In this document: positions 5,218 to 27,696 of the stretch, in pieces | Layout: every line of letters starts with the position of its first letter | How positions within the stretch are numbered: the first letter of the stretch is position 1 | Source of the DNA: Stappia stellulata DSM 5886 | GTDB lineage: Bacteria; Pseudomonadota; Alphaproteobacteria; Rhizobiales; Stappiaceae | Reading direction: 5' to 3' | Length of the DNA stretch: 64,000 bases | Assembly (NCBI RefSeq): GCF_000423705.1 | Contig: NZ_KE384083.1 | Location: 248,001-312,000, forward strand | Notes under the pieces: generated by a model | What the model saw: the letters and a program-made list of their open reading frames with translations, nothing else | Databases searched by the model: none | Told to the model about the DNA's origin: nothing | Program-made: the position numbers and the translations under genes

Positions 5218-6759
5218 ATGAGCGAACAGGCAGAGCGCGCGGGACGGCGCGGACGGGCGGCACGGACGGAAAAGCGGCGCGGCGCGAACGCGGGGGCAAG
5301 CATTCCCTATATTTCGCGCAATCTTCCGCTCTTCGACATCCTGAGCGACGAAGGCGCGGAGATCATCGAGGCCAACGCCGACCGGCTGCTCGCCGAGATC
5401 GGGCTGGAGTTTCGCGACGATCCCGAAACGCTGAAGATCTGGAAGGACGCCGGCGCGGATGTCGACGGCGAGCGGGTGCGCTTTCCCAAGGGGCTGCTGC
5501 GCGAGCTGATCAAGACCGCGCCGGCACAGTTCACACAGCATGCCCGCAACCCGGCGCGCAGCGTGGAGATCGGCGGCAACAATACGGTCTTCGCCCCGGT
5601 CTACGGCCCCCCCTTCGTCACCGACCTCGACCGCGGCCGGCGCTACGGCACGATCGAGGACTTCCGGAATTTCGTGAAACTCGCCTATTCCTCCCCCTGG
5701 CTCCACCATTCAGGCGGAACGGTCTGCGAACCGGTCGACCTGCCGGTCAACAAACGCCATTTCGACATGGTGTATTCCCACCTGAAATACTCCGACAAGC
5801 CGTTCATGGGATCGGTGACGGCACCGGAACGGGCGGAGGATTCCGTTGCCATGGCGCGGCTCGTCTTCGGCGACGCCTTCGTCGACGAGAACTGCGTGAT
5901 GATCCAGCTGATCAACGCCAATTCGCCGCTCGTCTTCGACGCGACGATGCTGGGCGCGCTGAAGGTCTATGCGGCGGCCAACCAGGCCTGCATCGTCTCG
6001 CCCTTCATTCTCGCCGGCGCGATGAGCCCGGTCACGGTTGCCGGCACGCTCTCCCAGGTCCTGGCGGAAGCGCTGGCCGGCTGCGCGCTGACCCAGCTCG
6101 TGCGCCCCGGCGCGCCGGTGGTCTTCGGCGCCTTCGTCTCCTCCATCTCCATGCAGTCGGGCGCCCCCACGTTCGGTTCGCCGGAGGGCACGCTGCTGCT
6201 CAACGGCGCGGCAAAGCTCGCCCGGCGTGCGGGCCTTCCCTTCCGCTCGGGCGGATCCTTCACCGCGTCCAAGACGCCGGATGCGCAATCGGCGCAGGAA
6301 TCCACCCAGACCATCATGGCGACCCTCCAGGCGGGCGTGAATTTCGCACTTCATTCCGCCGGCTGGCTCGAAGGCGGCCTGTGCTCGTCCTACGAGAAAT
6401 TCGTGATGGATGCCGACCAGCTCGGCATGATGCATGTGATGGCGAAAGGCATCGACCTGTCGGAGGAAGCGCAGGCGATGGACGCCCTGGCGGAGGTCGG
6501 CCCCGGCGGCCATTTCCTTGGCGCCGCCCACACCCAGCGAAACTTCGAGACGGCATTCTACCGCTCCGCGATCGCCGACAACAACTCCTACGAACAATGG
6601 AGCGCAGACGGCGGGTTGGATGCGAGTATGCGGGCAAACCAGAAGTGGAAACAGACACTTGCCGCCTATGAAGCACCGCCGCTCGACGCGGCAATAGACG
6701 AAGCCCTGATTGGCTTCATGGCTCGGCGAAAGGAAGAATTTCCGGACAGCAATATCTAG
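5218..6759 (+). CDS. MttB-family methyltransferase (non-pyrrolysine type)
   Basis: A 513-residue member of the trimethylamine methyltransferase (MttB) superfamily. The true trimethylamine enzyme carries pyrrolysine at an in-frame amber codon. This frame is open throughout with no internal TAG, so it belongs to the non-pyrrolysine branch. Characterised members of that branch demethylate quaternary amines such as glycine betaine, proline betaine or carnitine and methylate a corrinoid protein. The basic N-terminal extension (about 25 residues rich in R, A and G) is not part of the core. The ATG at 5218 has only a weak upstream GAGG. No corrinoid partner protein is encoded nearby, so the methyl acceptor is not evident. 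The neighbourhood (betaine methyltransferase, dimethylglycine dehydrogenase, creatinase) favours a methylated-amine substrate. Confidence 0.8.
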   Translation: MSEQAERAGRRGRAARTEKRRGANAGASIPYISRNLPLFDILSDEGAEIIEANADRLLAEIGLEFRDDPETLKIWKDAGADVDGERVRFPKGLLRELIKTAPAQFTQHARNPARSVEIGGNNTVFAPVYGPPFVTDLDRGRRYGTIEDFRNFVKLAYSSPWLHHSGGTVCEPVDLPVNKRHFDMVYSHLKYSDKPFMGSVTAPERAEDSVAMARLVFGDAFVDENCVMIQLINANSPLVFDATMLGALKVYAAANQACIVSPFILAGAMSPVTVAGTLSQVLAEALAGCALTQLVRPGAPVVFGAFVSSISMQSGAPTFGSPEGTLLLNGAAKLARRAGLPFRSGGSFTASKTPDAQSAQESTQTIMATLQAGVNFALHSAGWLEGGLCSSYEKFVMDADQLGMMHVMAKGIDLSEEAQAMDALAEVGPGGHFLGAAHTQRNFETAFYRSAIADNNSYEQWSADGGLDASMRANQKWKQTLAAYEAPPLDAAIDEALIGFMARRKEEFPDSNI

Positions 6760-7083
6760 CCGGAGCCACTCCGCGGCTCGGACGGAATACGCATTCCGGC
6801 AACCTGTCGAAAAGCACACTGCATCCGACTGCTGCCGTGCCAAAGTATTGGGCAAATCGTGCAGGCCCCCGCCTCACGCAACAGCATGGCTTTGTTTTTC
6901 TTTGCAATTTTAATAATTTTTCCCCCTCCCCCCTTTCATTGTGAGTCAAATTTTGCTTAGCTGACGCGACTTTCAGGGTCTTGAAACGAACCGCAAAGAG
7001 TTCGTGGCAGGGGAACAGCGCGTTACGCTCCGTCTTTTGGCCGGAAGAGCGTGCCCCTTGCTGTGTATTGCTTAGGGGCACAG
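6760..7083 (+). promoter_or_regulatory. Leader/promoter of the ABC transporter operon
   Basis: 324 gene-free bases between the MttB-like gene and the transporter ATPase gene. It holds a perfect GGAAT-N4-ATTCC palindrome at 6784-6797 and an abrupt AT-rich then pyrimidine-rich tract at about 6890-6960 (T-rich, then C5-T-C6). The tract stands out against the GC-rich surroundings and is a good candidate for the promoter or an UP-like element. If transcription starts there, the 5' leader would be 100 or more bases long. No known riboswitch fold was recognised. Confidence 0.5.
6784..6797. promoter_or_regulatory. GGAAT-N4-ATTCC palindrome (candidate operator)
   Basis: Perfect 14-base palindrome GGAATACGCATTCC followed by GGCAAC. 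A nearly identical string (one extra G at the centre, then GGCAAC) occurs at 43652-43666 in front of the sugar-transporter operon. The spacing fits the GGAA-N6-TTCC site reported for the RpiR-type repressor IolR of Sinorhizobium. Its role here is inferred. Confidence 0.45.
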
Positions 7084-8178
7084 ATGACAGAGACCAAGGG
7101 CGCCGCAGTCCGTTACGAGAACGTACAAAAAAGTTATGATGGCGAGACTCTTGTCGTCAAAAATCTCAATCTCGACATTCCGCCGGGCGAATTCCTCACC
7201 ATGCTCGGGCCGTCGGGGTCCGGCAAAACCACCTGCCTGATGATGCTGGCCGGCTTCGAGCCCGCCACCCACGGCGAAATCTTCCTGAATGACCGTCCGA
7301 TCAACAACGTGCAGCCGCACAAGCGCGGCATCGGCATGGTGTTCCAGAACTACGCCCTGTTTCCGCACATGAGCGTGGCGGAAAACCTGGCGTTCCCGCT
7401 TCAGGTGCGCGGGATGGGCAAGGCGGAACAGGAACAGAAGGTCAAGCGCGCACTGGAAATGGTCGAGCTCGGTCATTTCGGATCGCGTCGGCCGGCGCAA
7501 TTGTCCGGCGGCCAACAGCAGCGCGTGGCCGTTGCCCGCGCGCTGGTGTTCGATCCGGAGCTCGTGCTCATGGATGAACCGCTGGGCGCGCTCGACAAGC
7601 AGCTGCGCGAGCAGATGCAGTATGAAATCAAGCATATCCACGACAACATCGGCGTTTCGATCGTCTATGTGACGCACGACCAGACCGAGGCGCTGACGAT
7701 GTCGGACCGGGTGGCCGTGTTCAACGACGGCGTCATTCAGCAGTTGTCGCGGCCGGATGTTCTCTACGAGAATCCGCAGAACTCGTTCGTCGCCCAGTTC
7801 ATTGGCGAGAACAACAAGCTGAGCGGAACCGTTGAAGCCGTGGAAGGCGAGACCTGCACGGTTCGGCTGGACGACGGAACGATGCTCAAGGCGGATGCCG
7901 TCAACATCGACGGCGTGGGCTCACGCACCACCATTTCCCTGCGTCCGGAGCGCGTCGAATTCGATACGCACGAGACGATGGACAATCTGGTTTCTGGCCA
8001 GATCGAGGAAATGATCTATCTTGGAGACCATATCCGCGTGCGGATGAATGTTGCCGGCAACAACGAATTTGTCGTCAAGGTCCGCAACCGCGGAGAAAAG
8101 CGCGATCTCAAGACCGGGCAAACCGTCGAGATCGGCTGGGCCGCCGGCGACTGCAAGGCGCTCGACGCCGTCGCGTAA
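7084..8178 (+). CDS. PotA-type ABC transporter ATPase
   Basis: The energising subunit (364 residues) of an importer of the spermidine/putrescine-type family, associated with the inner face of the membrane. The Walker A motif GPSGSGKTT is near residue 42. The signature LSGGQQQR and the Walker B aspartate in VLMDEP follow, and a C-terminal TOBE domain covers about 280-364. The ATG at 7084 has AGGGGC seven bases upstream; a longer in-frame start at 7051 lacks a site. It opens a run of transporter genes: ATPase, binding protein, two permeases, with creatinase last. The order suggests one transport-and-degradation operon. The substrate cannot be read from the ATPase; creatine or a related guanidino or methylated amine is the contextual guess. 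Confidence 0.88.
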   Translation: MTETKGAAVRYENVQKSYDGETLVVKNLNLDIPPGEFLTMLGPSGSGKTTCLMMLAGFEPATHGEIFLNDRPINNVQPHKRGIGMVFQNYALFPHMSVAENLAFPLQVRGMGKAEQEQKVKRALEMVELGHFGSRRPAQLSGGQQQRVAVARALVFDPELVLMDEPLGALDKQLREQMQYEIKHIHDNIGVSIVYVTHDQTEALTMSDRVAVFNDGVIQQLSRPDVLYENPQNSFVAQFIGENNKLSGTVEAVEGETCTVRLDDGTMLKADAVNIDGVGSRTTISLRPERVEFDTHETMDNLVSGQIEEMIYLGDHIRVRMNVAGNNEFVVKVRNRGEKRDLKTGQTVEIGWAAGDCKALDAVA

Positions 8179-19279: not shown

Positions 19280-21427
19280 TCACGCCACGTTGCGGCGGCG
19301 GCCGGCGATCAAGTCGACCACGGAGCGGGCGGCATCCAGCACGTTGGAACCGGGACCGAAGATCGCCGCGACGCCGGCCTCTTTCAGGAACTCGTAGTCC
19401 TGGCGCGGAATGACGCCGCCGCAAACGACGATGATGTTGCCGGCGCCGCGCTCCTCCAGCGCCTTGACGAGCTGCGGCAGCAGCGTCTTGTGACCGGCGG
19501 CAAGCGACGACACGCCGACCACATGCACCTTTGCGTCGATGGCGGCTTGCGCCGCCTCCTCCGGTGTCTGGAACAGCGGGCCGGCGAGCACCTCGAAGCC
19601 GACGTCGCCGAAGGCGGAGGAAATCACCTTGGCGCCCCGGTCATGGCCGTCCTGACCGAGCTTCGCCACCATCACGCGCGGCTTTTCGCCAAGCTCGGCG
19701 GCGAGATCGGAGAGACGCGCGACCAGGGTCTGGTATTCCGGCTCGTCCTTGTACTCGCCGGCGTAGATGTCGGTGACGACTTCCGGCGTCGCCGCGTGAT
19801 CGCCGAAAACCGTGCGCATCGCGTCGGAGATCTCGCCAACGGTGGCCCGCGCACGGGCAGCCTCGACGGCGCGCTCCAGAATGTTGCCCTCGCCGGTGCG
19901 GGCGGTTTCCTCAAGCGCCTTGAGCGTTTCGGCAACCGCATCGGGATCGCGGGTCGCGCGGATCTTCTCCAGCCGGCGGACCTGCGACTTGCGCACCGCC
20001 GCATTGTCGATCTGCAGGATGTCGAGCGCGTCCTCGTCGTCGCGGCGGTACTTGTTGACGCCGACGATGACCGCATCGCCCTTGTCGACCGCGGCCTGAC
20101 GGCGGGTCGCCGCCTCCTCGATCATGCGCTTGGGCAGGCCCTTGTCGACGGCGGCGGTCATGCCGCCTTCCGCCTCGATGCGCTCGATGATCTCCCAGGC
20201 GCGGGTGGCGAGTTCGTCGGTCAGGCTCTCCACGTAGTAGGAGCCGGCCAGCGGATCGACGACATTGGTGACGCCGGTCTCGTGATTGAGAATGAGCTGG
20301 GTGTTGCGGGCGATGCGGGCGGAAAACTCCGTCGGCAGCGCAATCGCCTCGTCGAAGGAGTTGGTGTGCAGCGACTGCGTCCCGCCAAGCACCGCCGACA
20401 TCGCCTCGAAAGCCGTGCGCACGACATTGTTGTAAGGGTCCTGCTCGGCCAAGGACACGCCGGAGGTCTGGCAATGGGTTCGAAGCATCTTCGACTGCGG
20501 CTTTTTCGGCTCGAACTCGTCCATGATGCGCGACCACAGAAGCCGTGCCGCGCGCAGCTTCGCCGCTTCCATGAAGAAGTTCATGCCGATGCAGAAGAAG
20601 AACGACAGGCGGCCCGCGAAGGCATCGACATCGAGGCCCTTCTTCAGGGCGGCGCGCACGTATTCGCGCCCGTCGGCCAGCGTGAACGCCAGTTCCTGTA
20701 CCAGCGTCGCGCCGGCTTCCTGCATGTGGTAGCCGGAAATCGAGATCGAGTTGAAGCGCGGCATTTCCTTCGCCGTGAACTCGATGATGTCCGCGACGAT
20801 CCGCATGGAGGGCTCCGGCGGATAGATATAGGTGTTGCGGACCATGAACTCCTTGAGGATGTCGTTCTGGATCGTGCCGGAGAGCTCGGCACGCGACGCG
20901 CCCTGCTCCTCGCCGGCGACGATGAAGCTCGCCAGCACCGGAATGACCGCGCCGTTCATGGTCATGGAGACGGACATTTCCTTGAGCGGAATGCCGTCGA
21001 AGAGGATCTTCATGTCCTCAACGGAATCGATGGCAACGCCCGCCTTGCCGACGTCGCCGAGGACGCGCGGATGGTCGCTGTCGTAGCCGCGATGGGTGGC
21101 AAGGTCGAAGGCAACCGACAGGCCCTTCTGGCCGGCGGCGAGCGCTTTTCGGTAGAAGGCGTTGGATTCCTCCGCCGTGGAGAAGCCCGCATACTGGCGG
21201 ATGGTCCAGGGGCGACCGGCATACATGGTCGCGCGCGGGCCGCGCAGGAAGGGATCGAAGCCGGGAAGCGTGCCGAGATGGTCGATCCCCTCAAGGTCGG
21301 CTTCGGTGTAGAGCGGCTTGACGGGGATGCCCTCCGGCGTCTGCCAGACGAGATCCTCGATGCTGTCCGCCTTGATCTCGCGCGCGGCGAGGGCCTTCCA
21401 GTCGTCGATGCTCTTCTTGTCGCTCAC
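19280..21427 (-). CDS. mcm: Methylmalonyl-CoA mutase
   Basis: Converts (R)-methylmalonyl-CoA to succinyl-CoA with adenosylcobalamin, the last step of propionyl-CoA assimilation. At 715 residues it is the single-chain homodimeric type. The N-terminal barrel carries the substrate-contacting residues around [14 protein letters not shown] (about 85-98). The C-terminal B12 domain has the cobalt-ligating motif DGHDRG near residue 605. The start is GTG at 21427 with AGGAG seven bases upstream, 11 bases after pccA, so it ends the bioY-pccB-pccA operon. No meaB chaperone or epimerase gene lies here. No cobalamin riboswitch is seen, which is expected since it shares a promoter far upstream. Confidence 0.95.
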
Positions 21428-21438
21428 CGGCTTGGCTC

Positions 21439-23445
<2,007 letters not shown>

Positions 23446-23447
23446 GG

Positions 23448-24263
23448 TTAGATTTCTTCTTTCTGCACCATTGACACGAACGCAGACCCGAGTGGGGATA
23501 GATGAGCATTAAATAAAAAGCATCTCTGATCGTTCGATGATAACGCACTCTTGGCTAGGAAAGATGTTGAATTCACCCACAACAGACCCAATGACTCTAG
23601 GTGCAGGATGTTTGGACCTTCTTCCAAGCCACTAAATTCGAACTCCTCCGTATTTGATATATCATCACCCAGAAATACAAGCGTGTAACCATTCAGATTT
23701 TTTAATACTTCCCTTACTCGCGCCTCATCCTTGCCCTCACACAATTTCACAGAACTATAGAAATCTTCTGCGACGGCATCTCTTGTAAACGCGCTAATAC
23801 GAAAGAACTCACGCGAAGGCTGTTGCCTAGATAATTCGTCGAGAAATTGAGCCTGCCATGAGCTAATTGTACTCAAAATCTCTACAGCCCAGACTTTACT
23901 TTCCCCAGGCGCCTCATTTTGATTTGCAAGAAGGTTTGACCACCGCGCAATCATTTCTTCATCGTCGATATCTTCAAGAGATGCCTTCTCCAAGAGTGGG
24001 ATAAGGACTTTGTTCGGAAGTGGCTTGGCTTCAACACCGTCTAAACGCAGTCTTTTTCTCGCTCTACGCGCGACTTCGACTAGAACATCTTCTCTCTGCA
24101 GGCGAATTTGGTCAGCCTTTAATCCGCGACGCTCGGTAAAAGGTCGAATAAGATCGGTAAGAGCATCGACTAAACGGCCTGCGGAGGAAGCGGGGATTTC
24201 CGCCTTAACCTCAGCCTTGGCAGATAGTCCCACGTCGATCTTCACTTGCTTGTCTTCCCCCAT
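23448..24263 (-). CDS. DUF4393 (Abi-alpha-like) protein inserted in the pcc operon
   Basis: A 271-residue protein resembling DUF4393, also called Abi-alpha, a family linked to abortive phage infection. An N-terminal helical part contains a P-x-S-x-G-R-L-V-D-A-L region (about 25-50). The C-terminus ends in LSPLGSAFV, like the TPxGxxF end of the family. Base composition is strikingly different from its neighbours: a spot count of one 60-base line gives 45% GC in a region otherwise in the mid-60s, and codons such as AAA, GAT and TTA are frequent. The ATG at 24263 has GAGG six bases upstream, and that GAGG overlaps the stop codon of pccB. A TTG at 24275 is less likely. It sits snugly between pccB and pccA, on their strand, with gaps of 8 and 2 bases. 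It is probably horizontally acquired; function in defence is inferred from family only. Confidence 0.62.
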   Translation of the reverse strand: MGEDKQVKIDVGLSAKAEVKAEIPASSAGRLVDALTDLIRPFTERRGLKADQIRLQREDVLVEVARRARKRLRLDGVEAKPLPNKVLIPLLEKASLEDIDDEEMIARWSNLLANQNEAPGESKVWAVEILSTISSWQAQFLDELSRQQPSREFFRISAFTRDAVAEDFYSSVKLCEGKDEARVREVLKNLNGYTLVFLGDDISNTEEFEFSGLEEGPNILHLESLGLLWVNSTSFLAKSALSSNDQRCFLFNAHLSPLGSAFVSMVQKEEI

Positions 24264-24271
24264 GGTCGACC

Positions 24272-25804
24272 TCAAAGCGGAATGTTGTCGTGCTTCTTCC
24301 AGGGGTTCGACAGCTGCTTGTTGCGCAGCGTGGCGAAGGCCCGGGCGACGCGCTTTCGCGTCGACTGCGGCATGATCACATCGTCGATGAAGCCCTTTTC
24401 CGCCGCGACGAACGGATTGGCGAAGCGGTCCTCGTATTCCTTGGCCCGCGCGGCGATCTTGTCCGCGTCACCCAGTTCGGAGCGATAGAGGATCTCGGTC
24501 GCCCCCTTGGCGCCCATCACCGCGATCTCCGCCGTCGGCCAGGCGTAGTTGATGTCGCCGCGGATGTGCTTGGAGGCCATGACGTCATAGGCGCCGCCAT
24601 AGGCCTTGCGGGTGATCACCGTCACCTTGGGCACCGTCGCCTCGCCATAGGCGAAGAGCAGCTTTGCGCCATGCTTGATGACACCGCCGAATTCCTGCGT
24701 CGTGCCCGGCAGGAAGCCCGGCACATCGACAAATGTCAGGATCGGAATGTTGAAACAGTCGCAGAAGCGCACGAAGCGGGCGGCCTTGCGCGAGGAGTTG
24801 ATGTCGAGCACGCCGGCAAGAACCATCGGCTGGTTGGCGACGACGCCCACCGTCTGGCCCTCGATGCGAATGAAGCCGGTGACGATGTTGCCGGCATAGG
24901 CCTCCTGGATCTCGAAGAAATCGCCCTCGTCGGCGACCTTCACGATCAACTCCTTCATGTCATAGGGCTTGTTCGGATTGTCCGGGATCAGCGTATCGAG
25001 CGAGGCTTCGACGCGGGAGGGATCGTCGAAGAAATGCCGGACCGGCGGCTTTTCGCGGTTGCTGGCGGGCAGGAAATCCATGAACCGGCGCAGCGCGATC
25101 AGAGCTTCCACGTCATTGTCGAAAGCACAGTCGGCGACCGAGGACTTGCTGGTGTGGGTCTTGGCGCCGCCGAGCTCTTCCGCCGTCACCACCTCGTTGG
25201 TCACCGTCTTCACCACATCCGGGCCGGTGACGAACATGTATGAGGTGTCGCGGACCATGAAGATGAAGTCGGTCATCGCCGGCGAATAGACCGCGCCGCC
25301 CGCGCAAGGACCCATGATCATCGAGATCTGCGGGATCACACCCGATGCCATGATGTTGCGCTGGAACACATCCGCATAGCCGGCGAGCGAGGCGACGCCT
25401 TCCTGGATGCGGGCGCCGCCGCTGTCGTTGAGGCCGACGATGGGCGCGCCGTTCTTCATGGCCATGTCCATGACCTTGCAGATCTTCTGCGCGTGGGTCT
25501 CCGACAGGGATCCGCCGAAGACGGTGAAATCCTGGGAGAAAACATAGACCAGACGGCCGTTGACCGTGCCCCAGCCGGTGATCACGCCGTCGCCCGGCAT
25601 CTGGGTTCCATCCATGCCGAAATCGACACAGCGGTGCGCGACGAACATGTCGTATTCCTCGAAGGAGCCTTCATCGAGAAAGACGTCGATGCGCTCGCGC
25701 GCGGTCAACTTGCCCTTGGCGTGCTGGGCATCGATCCGGCGTTGCCCGCCACCGAGGCGGGCGGCGGCGCGGCGGGTTTCCAGCTCCTGCAAAATCTCCT
25801 GCAT
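24272..25804 (-). CDS. pccB: Propionyl-CoA carboxylase beta subunit
   Basis: The carboxyltransferase subunit (510 residues) that moves CO2 from biotin on PccA to propionyl-CoA, giving (S)-methylmalonyl-CoA. It has the two crotonase-like halves of the family: the N-terminal half with [10 protein letters not shown] and a [12 protein letters not shown] oxyanion region, and the C-terminal half with GGAYDVM and [10 protein letters not shown]. Length is normal. The ATG at 25804 lies 11 bases after the bioY stop, so the biotin transporter and the biotin enzyme are co-transcribed. Its stop codon supplies the ribosome-binding site of the DUF4393 gene. Confidence 0.95.
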
Positions 25805-25815
25805 GGACGGGCCTT

Positions 25816-26394
25816 TCAGCTACGAGGAATACGGGTCAGCGCCACGGCGATGGTGGCGGCAAGAAGCGACTTGACGATACCGCCAAGAATGAAGGGATAC
25901 AGCCCCCAGGCAAAAATCGGCTTGTCGAAGCCAAAAAGAAGGCCGAGCCAGAGCACGCCGGGGAGGAAGACAACCGCCTGGGCGATCAGCGCGGCCGGCA
26001 CGGCGCGCCAGAGGCTCAGCGTCCAGCCGCGCAGGGCGAACCAGCCGGCGATCCAGGCGGAGGCGACAAAGCCGAGCAGGAACCCGCCGGTCGGGCCGGC
26101 CATATAGGAAAGGCCGATGCCCTTGGCCGGAGAGCCGGAAAAGACCGGAAGGCCCGCCGCCCCCTGCGCCAGATACAGGACGACGGCCGCAGCGGCGCAG
26201 CGCGGACCGAGCGTGAAGCCCAGCACCAGCAGCGCCAGCGTCTGCAGCGTCATCGGAACGGGATAAAAGGGGATGCTGACCTTGGCGGAAACGGTCAGGA
26301 GCAGCGATCCGGCGAATGCGGCGACGAGCGTCGCGACAACGCCTTGCGGAGCGAAGGAAAGCGAAGCCGACGTCGATCCGGCATGTTGCGTCAT
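25816..26394 (-). CDS. bioY: Biotin transporter BioY
   Basis: The substrate-binding membrane subunit (S-component) of a biotin ECF-type transporter (192 residues, about six helices). The family features are visible: [12 protein letters not shown] near 45-57, then a GxPVFxG segment and [13 protein letters not shown] near 95-107. No ecfT or ecfA gene is adjacent, so it works either alone or with shared energising subunits. The ATG at 26394 has GGGAGG eight bases upstream. It is the first gene of the propionyl-CoA operon, giving a direct link between biotin uptake and the biotin-dependent carboxylase. Its promoter carries TTTGCAAA sites typical of PccR control. Confidence 0.92.
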
Positions 26395-26547: not shown

Positions 26548-26608
26548 ATGAAAAAGCTCTTTCTCGGTCGCCAGATCCGCAGTCTGCGCGAGAAAGCGGC
26601 GCTGACGC
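26548..26608 (+). pseudogene. Truncated duplicate of the pccR 5' end (61 bases)
   Basis: These 61 bases are identical to the first 61 bases of the regulator gene at 27636-27696, starting exactly at the ATG. After base 26608 the sequences part and the frame continues into unrelated codons until a stop near 26841, so only about 20 regulator residues remain. This copy, not the full gene, now sits next to the original divergent promoter. Confidence 0.9.
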
Positions 26609-26842
26609 CTGACATGCGCCGTCAGCCCCCCAAGGGAAGTACAGCCACAAGCCGGCGCCTGAAGGATATGCATTTTAGCGCGGCGATGGTAAGCGGCTCT
26701 TGCCAGAAACGGCGCAGGACAGAGATCGCTGACCGCCGCTTCGTATGCAGCCGATGTGCTGTTTCAATGCGCGAAAACAGCAGCGTTCGTCATCTGCGAT
26801 CACCCACTTGCAGGCAAAGCGCATACCACGGGAGGAACTGAT
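26609..26842 (+). other. Left part of the inserted segment, no recognisable gene
   Basis: 234 bases between the truncated regulator copy and the sulfotransferase start. The frame fused to the regulator fragment stays open to about 26841, but its sequence resembles no family I know. No transposase remnant, integrase or terminal inverted repeat was recognised. A short GCTGACG/CGTCAGC inverted repeat straddles the junction at 26601-26626. Confidence 0.5.
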
Positions 26843-27589
26843 TTGCTTAACTTGGACCGTCGAGCCGTTCAATACTCGGCTGAGCGTCTTCTTACCGTCC
26901 TCGGCATCCGCCAGCCGAAAAAGCTGCTCATTCACATTCCAAAGAACGGCGGCATGACGATCCGGCATGCTGATCAGCTCAAGGAACGTGTGATCCTAGC
27001 CTCACGGAAGCGTTTGAAGAGCCCAGCCTATGCCGACAGGCTGCTTGCCACAATGAAAGCGAACGGCGATCACCCGGGCTATGAACATGCCCGCTACCGC
27101 GATGTCCGGTTGTCGATTCGAAAAGCCAACAACGCCTTTGCCGTCATCCGCAATCCGTGGTCCCGAGTGGTCTCGCGTTTCACTTTCGCCGTAAGCGCGA
27201 TGGATGACGGACGCGCGCCGGAGGGGTATGTTCCGCGCGATTTCGAAGCTTTCCTGGAAGAGCGACATGTCTGGGGTGCGCGCGAGTTCTTCTGGCACCG
27301 GGCAATTCGTGGATGGTACCCGCAACTCGATTATGTCGTCGACGAAAGCGGAGATATCGCAGTCGATCTCCTGAGACTTGAACACCTATCCGAAGAGACC
27401 AGCCGCTACTTTCAGCTTTCGGCTAGTCTCGATCGTCGCAACAAAAGCGCCAGATCGAAAGCAAGCTACAGGCAATACTACAACGCTCGGCTCATCCAGA
27501 TCGTCGCGGACTGGTATAGCCGCGACATCGAGACCTTTGGTTTCGATTTCGACACCGCAGCCGCGCGCAATACGCTTTACGCGCCATGA
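26843..27589 (+). CDS. Sulfotransferase family 2-like protein
   Basis: A 248-residue cytoplasmic protein with the two PAPS-binding motifs of carbohydrate sulfotransferases. The 5'-phosphosulfate loop is HIPKNGGMT (residues about 30-38) and the 3'-phosphate motif is RNPWSRVVSRF (about 100-110). It would transfer sulfate from PAPS to a polysaccharide, glycolipid or similar acceptor, which cannot be named. I chose the TTG at 26843, which has GGAGG seven bases upstream; a GTG at 26756 in the same frame lacks a site. The gene sits inside the segment bounded by the 61-bp direct repeat and has no functional link to the propionate genes, so it is likely acquired. It now lies between the old pccR promoter and pccR and may be co-transcribed with it. 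Confidence 0.72.
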   Translation: MLNLDRRAVQYSAERLLTVLGIRQPKKLLIHIPKNGGMTIRHADQLKERVILASRKRLKSPAYADRLLATMKANGDHPGYEHARYRDVRLSIRKANNAFAVIRNPWSRVVSRFTFAVSAMDDGRAPEGYVPRDFEAFLEERHVWGAREFFWHRAIRGWYPQLDYVVDESGDIAVDLLRLEHLSEETSRYFQLSASLDRRNKSARSKASYRQYYNARLIQIVADWYSRDIETFGFDFDTAAARNTLYAP

Positions 27590-27635: not shown

Positions 27636-27696
27636 ATGAAAAAGCTCTTTCTCGGTCGCCAGATCCGCAGTCTGCGCGAGAAAGCGGCGCTGACGC
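27636..27696 (+). repeat. Second copy of the 61-bp direct repeat
   Basis: Identical to 26548-26608 and forms the start of the intact regulator gene. The distance between copies is 1088 bases. Flanking bases differ on both sides, so the repeat is exactly 61 bases. Confidence 0.92.

Follow-up and report, generated by a model that had tools for sequence, protein, structure and literature searches.

A probable abortive-infection gene between pccB and pccA in Stappia stellulata and a proposed landing site for small cargo at the 3' end of pccB

The search for defence genes commonly turns to islands and mobile elements. Abi-alpha of Enterococcus faecalis V583, a protein of 272 aa encoded on prophage 6, is an experimentally shown abortive-infection protein that abolishes the plaques of phage Idefix with early lysis; in that study its domain is called DUF4393 and its homologues are placed mostly on prophages (PMC6356687). 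The DUF4160/DUF2442 pair DhiTA is an experimentally shown toxin-antitoxin pair in Dickeya dadantii (PMC8198452). Homologous recombination in the flanks has been put forward as the way in which cDHS1 and cDHS2, two core defence hotspots of Pseudomonas aeruginosa, are transferred (PMC10250203).

The window (the whole stretch of 64,000 nucleotides of Stappia stellulata DSM 5886 that was analysed) carries a gene of the Abi_alpha family in its propionate operon, between the genes for the two subunits of propionyl-CoA carboxylase (Table 1). We consider it probable that this is a horizontally acquired gene, likely of abortive infection, which hitchhikes in a core operon where such cargo has landed repeatedly.

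Table 1. Features of the propionate operon around the Abi_alpha gene, with positions in the window
Feature	Position	Strand	Basis
Abi_alpha (PF14337, formerly DUF4393) gene	23448..24263	-	PF14337 match, low GC, no match in 13 congeners
pccB, propionyl-CoA carboxylase carboxyltransferase subunit, 510 aa	24272..25804	-	Pfam Carboxyl_trans, E 2.8e-198
pccA, biotin carboxylase subunit, 668 aa	21439..23445	-	Pfam biotin carboxylase, PCC_BT and biotinyl domains
mcm, methylmalonyl-CoA mutase, next operon gene	19280..21427	-	NCBIfam NF006944 above cut-off
bioY-like gene (presumed name), 11 nt upstream of pccB	25816..26394	-	ORF
Predicted Shine-Dalgarno GAGG of the Abi_alpha gene	24270..24273	-	Sequence; duplex -6.3 kcal/mol
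Best Shine-Dalgarno-like stretch of pccA, inside the Abi_alpha 3' end	23455..23463	-	-2.1 kcal/mol

The Abi_alpha gene and its place in the propionate operon

The ORF encodes a protein of 271 aa from an ATG codon. The sequence-only reading had described it as a DUF4393-like gene of about 45% GC between pccB and pccA, and had proposed a search of the protein against PF14337. In this search the Pfam match (E 2.1e-12) reached 47.9 bits against a curated cut-off of 29 and spanned profile positions 3-194 of 196, so that the protein belongs to the family and the outcome of no match to DUF4393 did not occur; the measured GC of 0.463 bore out the low GC. A second Pfam match, to DUF2806, was weak and below its cut-off, the NCBIfam search gave nothing above cut-off, PADLOC returned only a weak candidate match (PDC-S47, E 0.0079) and PHROGs a weak match to a family without known function. 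None of the solved relatives was convincing (best E 0.094), and the single-sequence fold prediction was unusable at a pLDDT of 34. Since neither the solved relatives, nor the predicted fold, nor the weak PADLOC match carry it further, the defence reading rests on family membership, and whether an abortive-infection effector would be the main role of the gene is to us about evenly balanced. As such it would most likely be a single-gene effector, with infected cells dying or lysing early as with Abi-alpha of E. faecalis.

The composition of the gene differs from that of its neighbourhood, with a GC3 of 0.441 against a GC of 0.629 and a GC3 of 0.863 for pccB and a GC of 0.649 for the window. It is present in a single copy in its genome (G000), and the protein was matched in 2 of the 101 genomes searched, its own and one from another family of the order (G089). 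The earlier reading had also proposed a comparison of the pccB-pccA junction among relatives. No match to the protein was found in any of the 13 other genomes of the genus, two of which are less than 90% complete, and the junction itself could be read in all 13. Searches by tblastn found no close relatives of the protein in genome_contigs and, at a threshold of 1e-3, no match of the gene among the 50,697 phage and the 72,556 plasmid records searched. A location on a prophage is reported to be usual for Abi-alpha homologues, though not defining; the gene of the window sits in a core operon. Its low GC and the missing match in 13 of 13 congeners together support a horizontal acquisition, as judged from sequence comparison. 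A conserved and vertically inherited member of the operon was not seen, and with a foreign GC3 and no match in any congener this candidate explanation was ruled out.

The insertion is tight at both ends. The pccB stop codon TGA (24272-24274) reads into TGAGG, which places the predicted Shine-Dalgarno sequence of the Abi_alpha gene over the end of pccB, and the ATG begins 8 nt after that stop. At the other end the TAA (23448-23450) is followed by CC and then by the ATG of pccA, a spacing of 2 nt. Both the overlapping ribosome-binding site and the 2-nt spacing were thus found as first read, and the suspicion that pccA is left without a good ribosome-binding site of its own was likewise upheld: its predicted Shine-Dalgarno sequence is the weakest among the 14 genomes of the genus, with -3.3 to -11.3 kcal/mol in the other 13. 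The anatomy is thus that expected of a translationally coupled cargo gene, as judged from the near-abutting starts and stops and from duplex energies. Further down, the GTG start of mcm lies 11 nt past the pccA stop. TGAGG also stands directly after pccB in G007, a congener whose junction is empty, and on this account it is probably a host sequence that was taken over by the cargo. In another congener (G008) the dhiT gene described below has, like the Abi_alpha gene of the window, its best Shine-Dalgarno sequence in the TGAGG over the pccB stop. A scan of 23300-24500, which covered a single promoter type, gave no sigma70-like promoter and no terminator-like site, and the RNA structure around the junction of pccB and the Abi_alpha gene was nothing unusual (z -0.34).

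From this arrangement we propose that the gene entered the operon precisely in the interval between the stop of pccB and the start of pccA. Since no promoter of its own was recognised, it would most likely be transcribed from the propionate operon, and it would be translated by coupling to pccB through the GAGG over the pccB stop. Ribosomes ending on the Abi_alpha gene probably feed the weak pccA start. The idea of the sequence-only reading that the operon is a means to keep the gene expressed fits this predicted anatomy, in which the starts of all six pccB-linked copies known to us (next section) fall between -4 and +41 nt relative to the stop of pccB.

Several other features were noted around the operon. 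Six nucleotides, ACCATG, are common to both ends of the insert by eye and were not counted as evidence. The gene upstream of pccB, which we take to be bioY-like, had no NCBIfam match at 1e-10; it is found in 12 of the 14 genus loci and is missing in G011 and G008 (L034, L046). Beside the operon, a unit that includes a sulfotransferase-like gene (26756-27589), of GC about 0.57 against 0.65 for the window, is bounded by a perfect 61-bp direct repeat (26548-26608 and 27636-27696), a duplication of the 5' end of an XRE-type regulator gene that begins at 27636. The repeat is present in two copies in G000 and in one copy in each of the 13 congeners, and is a scar similar to the core-gene end repeats described below.

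The 3' end of pccB and other core-gene junctions as cargo sites

Matches to pccB with an E value no worse than 1e-150 came from 95 of the 101 genomes, the window genome included, and the gene was located in all 14 genomes of the genus. The junction with pccA was empty in 8 of these, held a DhiTA-type pair in 5 and the Abi_alpha gene in the window genome. The empty spacers measured 16, 16, 23, 26, 37, 37, 40 and 100 bp and the filled ones 638, 662, 677, 829 (window), 943 and 947 bp, the stop codon included. In all five congener cargoes a DUF4160-type gene comes first and overlaps a DUF2442-type gene by 20 nt; Pfam, run on the cargo of G002 alone, gave PF13711 at E 2.7e-16 and PF10387 at E 1.5e-13. 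When the 14 genomes were searched for DhiT, one match was obtained in each of the five, always beside pccB. Thus the same conserved flanks carry different cargo in close relatives, and the junction is a real cargo site in the genus; the hotspot that had been suspected here recurs even more widely than was proposed.

The junction states require at least five changes on the tree of pccB and pccA from the 14 genomes. Between G011 and G002 the DNA identity was 95.4% for DhiT, 89.8% for pccB and 82.7% for pccA, and the value for DhiT exceeds all 3084 equal-length windows of pccA and pccB (maximum 94.1%), which argues that the dhiTA cargo was exchanged between lineages at this junction; for G011 and G004, 3 of the 3084 windows reach the DhiT identity. 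The DhiTA of G005, the sister of the empty G007, is only about 60% identical in DNA to the others, and for this reason at least two alleles probably entered the same site. A third, helix-turn-helix-like ORF follows dhiTA in G011 and G002 (L034, L043; 48% identical to each other), has weak Pfam matches (in G002) and ends in a Shine-Dalgarno-like AAAGGT just before pccA. The pccA-mcm junction contains a hydrophobic ORF of about 150 aa in 4 of the 14 genomes (L038, L039, L044, L045), by eye probably a membrane protein.

Outside the genus, Abi_alpha was again found at pccB. In the order, PF14337 was detected in 14 of 397 genomes at 16 places, of which four are directly 3' of pccB: the window, G162 (L155), G406 (L154) and G286 (L159). 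The gene order in G162 is pccB, Abi_alpha, pccA, mcm, and in G406 a frame break separates the first part of the Abi_alpha gene from its remainder, the pccB there being broken as well. A search of the class with alignment A1 matched 5 of 385 genomes, G000 among them, and in two of the four others (G563 and G564) Abi_alpha is directly 3' of pccB; since 4 of the 9 rows of A1 are pccB-linked, this search may favour such members. The Abi_alpha gene of G564 has pccB on one side and on the other a small gene with two transmembrane segments, homologues of which (39 and 36% identical) directly follow pccB in L252 and L255. Among 249 genomes of the phylum there was one further match, away from pccB. In total, 6 of the 21 detected loci, or 5 of 20 without the window, have Abi_alpha directly 3' of pccB and co-directional with it, the samples of order, class and phylum having genomes in common. 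The linked genes come from the family of the window and four others, and all six have a GC3 below that of pccB. With G898 left out and one gene in 4000 assumed, the chance of at least 5 of 19 loci falling at pccB was about 1e-14, and that of at least 4 of 19 was 1.5e-11.

In the tree of 20 of the 21 proteins (again without G898) the six linked ones are in one 12-row part, mixed with non-linked ones, and linkage to pccB changes five times. A single origin of the six as one clade was rejected by the AU test (p 0.0005), on a tree with long branches. With such branches the number of entries at pccB is uncertain; one entry without later movement does not fit the tree. About 1 kb from one Abi_alpha gene that is not pccB-linked, an integrase-like ORF was noted (L148:4577-5788), whose matches to Arm-DNA-bind_3 (E 1.4e-5) and Phage_integrase (E 1.6e-4) are both below cut-off.

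DhiTA was found at pccB and at other core operons. DhiT was detected in 19 of 397 order genomes, one of which belongs to the genus, and in 5 of 289 of the class, giving 23 loci outside the genus, all with a DhiA homologue beside dhiT. Two of these are directly 3' of pccB (G217, and G131 with an internal stop in dhiT), and three, from three genera and three families, have DhiTA-type genes between pheS and pheT (G111, G433 and G242; L329, L330, L331); the dhiT of G433 has an internal stop, and G242 has both domains in one ORF. The chance of three dhiT loci at pheS is about 1e-4 over 4000 genes. In G447 the pair is between sdhA and sdhB (L336:5176-8276), with dhiT starting 23 nt after the sdhA stop at a GC of 0.37 against 0.47 for the locus, and in G432 it directly follows ilvB, with ilvH further down (L333, L169). 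Further copies of dhiT follow leuC in G208 and serB in G348 and G321 of one genus, the core genes at dhiT loci being named by protein matches (serB for G348 only). For 16 of the 23 dhiT genes outside the genus, the stop of a same-strand ORF of more than 120 aa is no further than 30 nt from the dhiT start.

The junction is also occupied by genes of other kinds. Neither tblastn for Abi_alpha and dhiTA nor the Abi_alpha HMM found any in the stretch of up to 4 kb downstream of pccB in 80 named loci out of at least 593, mostly from Rhodobacterales; other genes were found there, several of them recurring. In named loci, mostly of Rhodobacterales and Rhizobiales, the pccB-pccA gap was between 13 bp and 3.4 kb long and contained several unrelated genes, and in the rest of the family it was 0.7-8.3 kb where pccA was found. 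Among 180 pccB ends, not all independent, pccA lay within 120 bp in 21, no ORF of 60 aa or more started within 80 bp in 71, and some ORF, many of them doubtful, was seen in 88. From these recurring genes and the 180-end survey, the pccB end accepts many kinds of genes, defence being one. The cargo is Abi_alpha and toxin-antitoxin pairs in the genus and unrelated genes in other groups, and the genes at this junction in Rhodobacterales and other relatives are without a known defence role, which speaks against a hotspot for defence alone; PADLOC on 10 cargo proteins was weak or empty for nine and gave E 1.6e-6 for that of L262. Lower-GC single genes directly 3' of pccB were noted at L094:555-1070, L192:5542-6075, L104:583-1104 and L103:619-1581, the types among them being DUF4760-like (two, one below cut-off), weakly HEPN/DUF4145-like and HtrL_YibB-like. 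A family-wide hotspot argued from gap size alone was dropped, given the loose pccB-pccA spacing in most loci outside the genus and noisy ORF calls.

Route of entry and competing explanations

In 46 cargo loci, the 250 bp that immediately precede the cargo were searched for a further copy in the locus, and in three the 3' end of the core gene was found repeated behind the cargo. The pccB end is repeated behind dhiTA in G217 (135 bp, 95.6%), the ilvB end behind DhiTA in G432 (107 bp, 86.9%), and a perfect 29-bp pccB end in G286 (L159), where the Abi_alpha stop codon is inside the second copy. Two further repeats were of other kinds: perfect 57-bp direct repeats around an Abi_alpha gene away from pccB in G395 (L158, about 6420-7645), which looks like a recent single-gene insertion, and a 63-bp repeat (84%) in a short contig of G138. 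The other 41 loci, the window and the five dhiTA loci of the genus included, had no repeat above 26.5 bits. A donor tract in pccB of the window genome was also considered, and none was seen in the identity comparison; pccB of the window showed no repeated 3' end behind the cargo and no drop of identity towards its own end.

The two copies of a repeat were then compared with relatives. In G432 the two copies differ at 14 sites; at 12 of them the copy fused to ilvB matches L272, the nearest relative, and at one the second copy does, and by this comparison the fused copy is native-like; against the congener L273 the agreement is 6 to 6. For G217 the count against L302, its nearest relative, is 6 to 0 in favour of the fused copy, and some distant relatives favour the second copy, for example L306 (1:4) and L318 (2:4). 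Such repeats would fit incoming DNA that carried a foreign core-gene end beyond the cargo; alternatively they may be drifted tandem copies. Homology-assisted illegitimate recombination would give scars of this type. The end repeats at these three other sites thus point to an insertion anchored in core-gene homology. We therefore propose that the pccB 3' end is a recurrent landing site in Alphaproteobacteria for small cargo such as Abi_alpha, DhiTA and others, which probably arrives on incoming DNA sharing the core gene, recombination in the core-gene end bringing in the cargo and sometimes leaving a second copy of that end. We infer co-expression, coupling, anti-phage action, the recombination route and its use for the insertion in the window.

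The return of one family to pccB could also have a functional ground, if an Abi_alpha-like subfamily were a partner of propionyl-CoA carboxylase, in its assembly, its regulation or the sensing of the enzyme or of propionyl-CoA, and were kept beside pccB with any defence role secondary. Six of 21 loci lying directly 3' of pccB and co-directional in five families, and the linked copies all falling in one part of the tree, would suit such a partner, but the other 15 loci are elsewhere, Abi_alpha is found in so few genomes of the order and class, as against 95 of 101 relatives that have pccB, the linked copies do not form a clade, cargo of unrelated kinds occupies the same site and GC3 is below that of pccB in all six copies. 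We hold this to be quite unlikely. The loose gaps of the named loci and of the rest of the family, with their several unrelated genes, and the variable pccA-mcm junction (4 of 14 genomes) speak instead for a tolerated, neutral insertion, in which any gene may land at a loose junction and defence and toxin genes would merely reflect their general mobility, with no selection for coupling and no special route. This too is unlikely in our judgement, as it does not account for two cargo families recurring at pccB in separate families far above chance, for six predicted Abi_alpha starts within so narrow a distance of the stop, for dhiTA having the same habit at pheS, sdhA and ilvB, or for cargo exchanged between species at the same place.

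The perfect repeats bear on yet another possibility, integration of cargo at the pccB 3' end by a trans-acting recombinase that leaves attachment-site repeats. The 29-bp repeat that flanks Abi_alpha in G286, the 57-bp repeats that flank it elsewhere in G395 and the sub-threshold integrase-like ORF of L148 could be taken in this way; yet the repeats are of unequal length (29, 57, 107 and 135 bp) and concern different genes, 41 of the 46 loci lack any repeat of this sort, and no recombinase gene was seen by eye among the flanking ORFs listed for the pccB-linked loci. Site-specific integration is thus very unlikely, and the acquired gene that hitchhikes in the operon is the reading we retain. More broadly, and only tentatively, recombinase-free Abi and toxin-antitoxin cassettes of Alphaproteobacteria could use core enzymes as homing sites, travelling with the end of pccB, pheS, ilvB or sdhA by homologous recombination even between distant families, and settling between subunit genes where their loss would be costly and their expression assured by coupling.

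Comparison with known systems and significance

Mosaic operons arise by horizontal transfer and in-situ displacement, which bring foreign genes inside conserved operons, usually as the replacement of a metabolic gene. In contrast, an unrelated defence or toxin gene was added here, at the same junction in several families. These observations suggest that core operons act as landing sites for defence- and toxin-type cargo. If the pccB/pccA and pheS/pheT junctions are regular landing sites, a simple search between subunit genes could find new single-gene defence and toxin-antitoxin systems. The spread of a small immune gene without a mobile element of its own could then be tested directly, and the expression of an immune gene could be tied to a metabolic pathway, here the use of propionate.

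No earlier description of this pattern was found among the listed titles and opening lines of abstracts from the open-licence literature. Abi-alpha (EF2833) of E. faecalis prophage 6 is of the same Pfam family, of similar size (272 against 271 aa) and likewise a single gene; it is prophage-borne with its own promoter (PMC6356687), whereas the gene of the window is part of a core metabolic operon, where the scan revealed no promoter. The congener cargo has both domains of the DhiTA of D. dadantii, with the toxin gene first and the 20-nt overlap in five of five. The Dickeya pair has its own autoregulated promoter (PMC8198452), while the dhiTA genes found here are inside or behind core genes. Conserved core flanks with strain-variable cargo that includes immune genes are likewise the mark of cDHS1 and cDHS2 of P. 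aeruginosa; those are kilobase islands between separate loci with medians of 26 and 6 kb (PMC10250203), unlike the one to three genes that abut operon genes here, between the subunit genes of one enzyme. The protein families are thus known, and their recurrent, tight placement between genes for the subunits of core enzymes suggests a new form of core-flanked defence hotspot.
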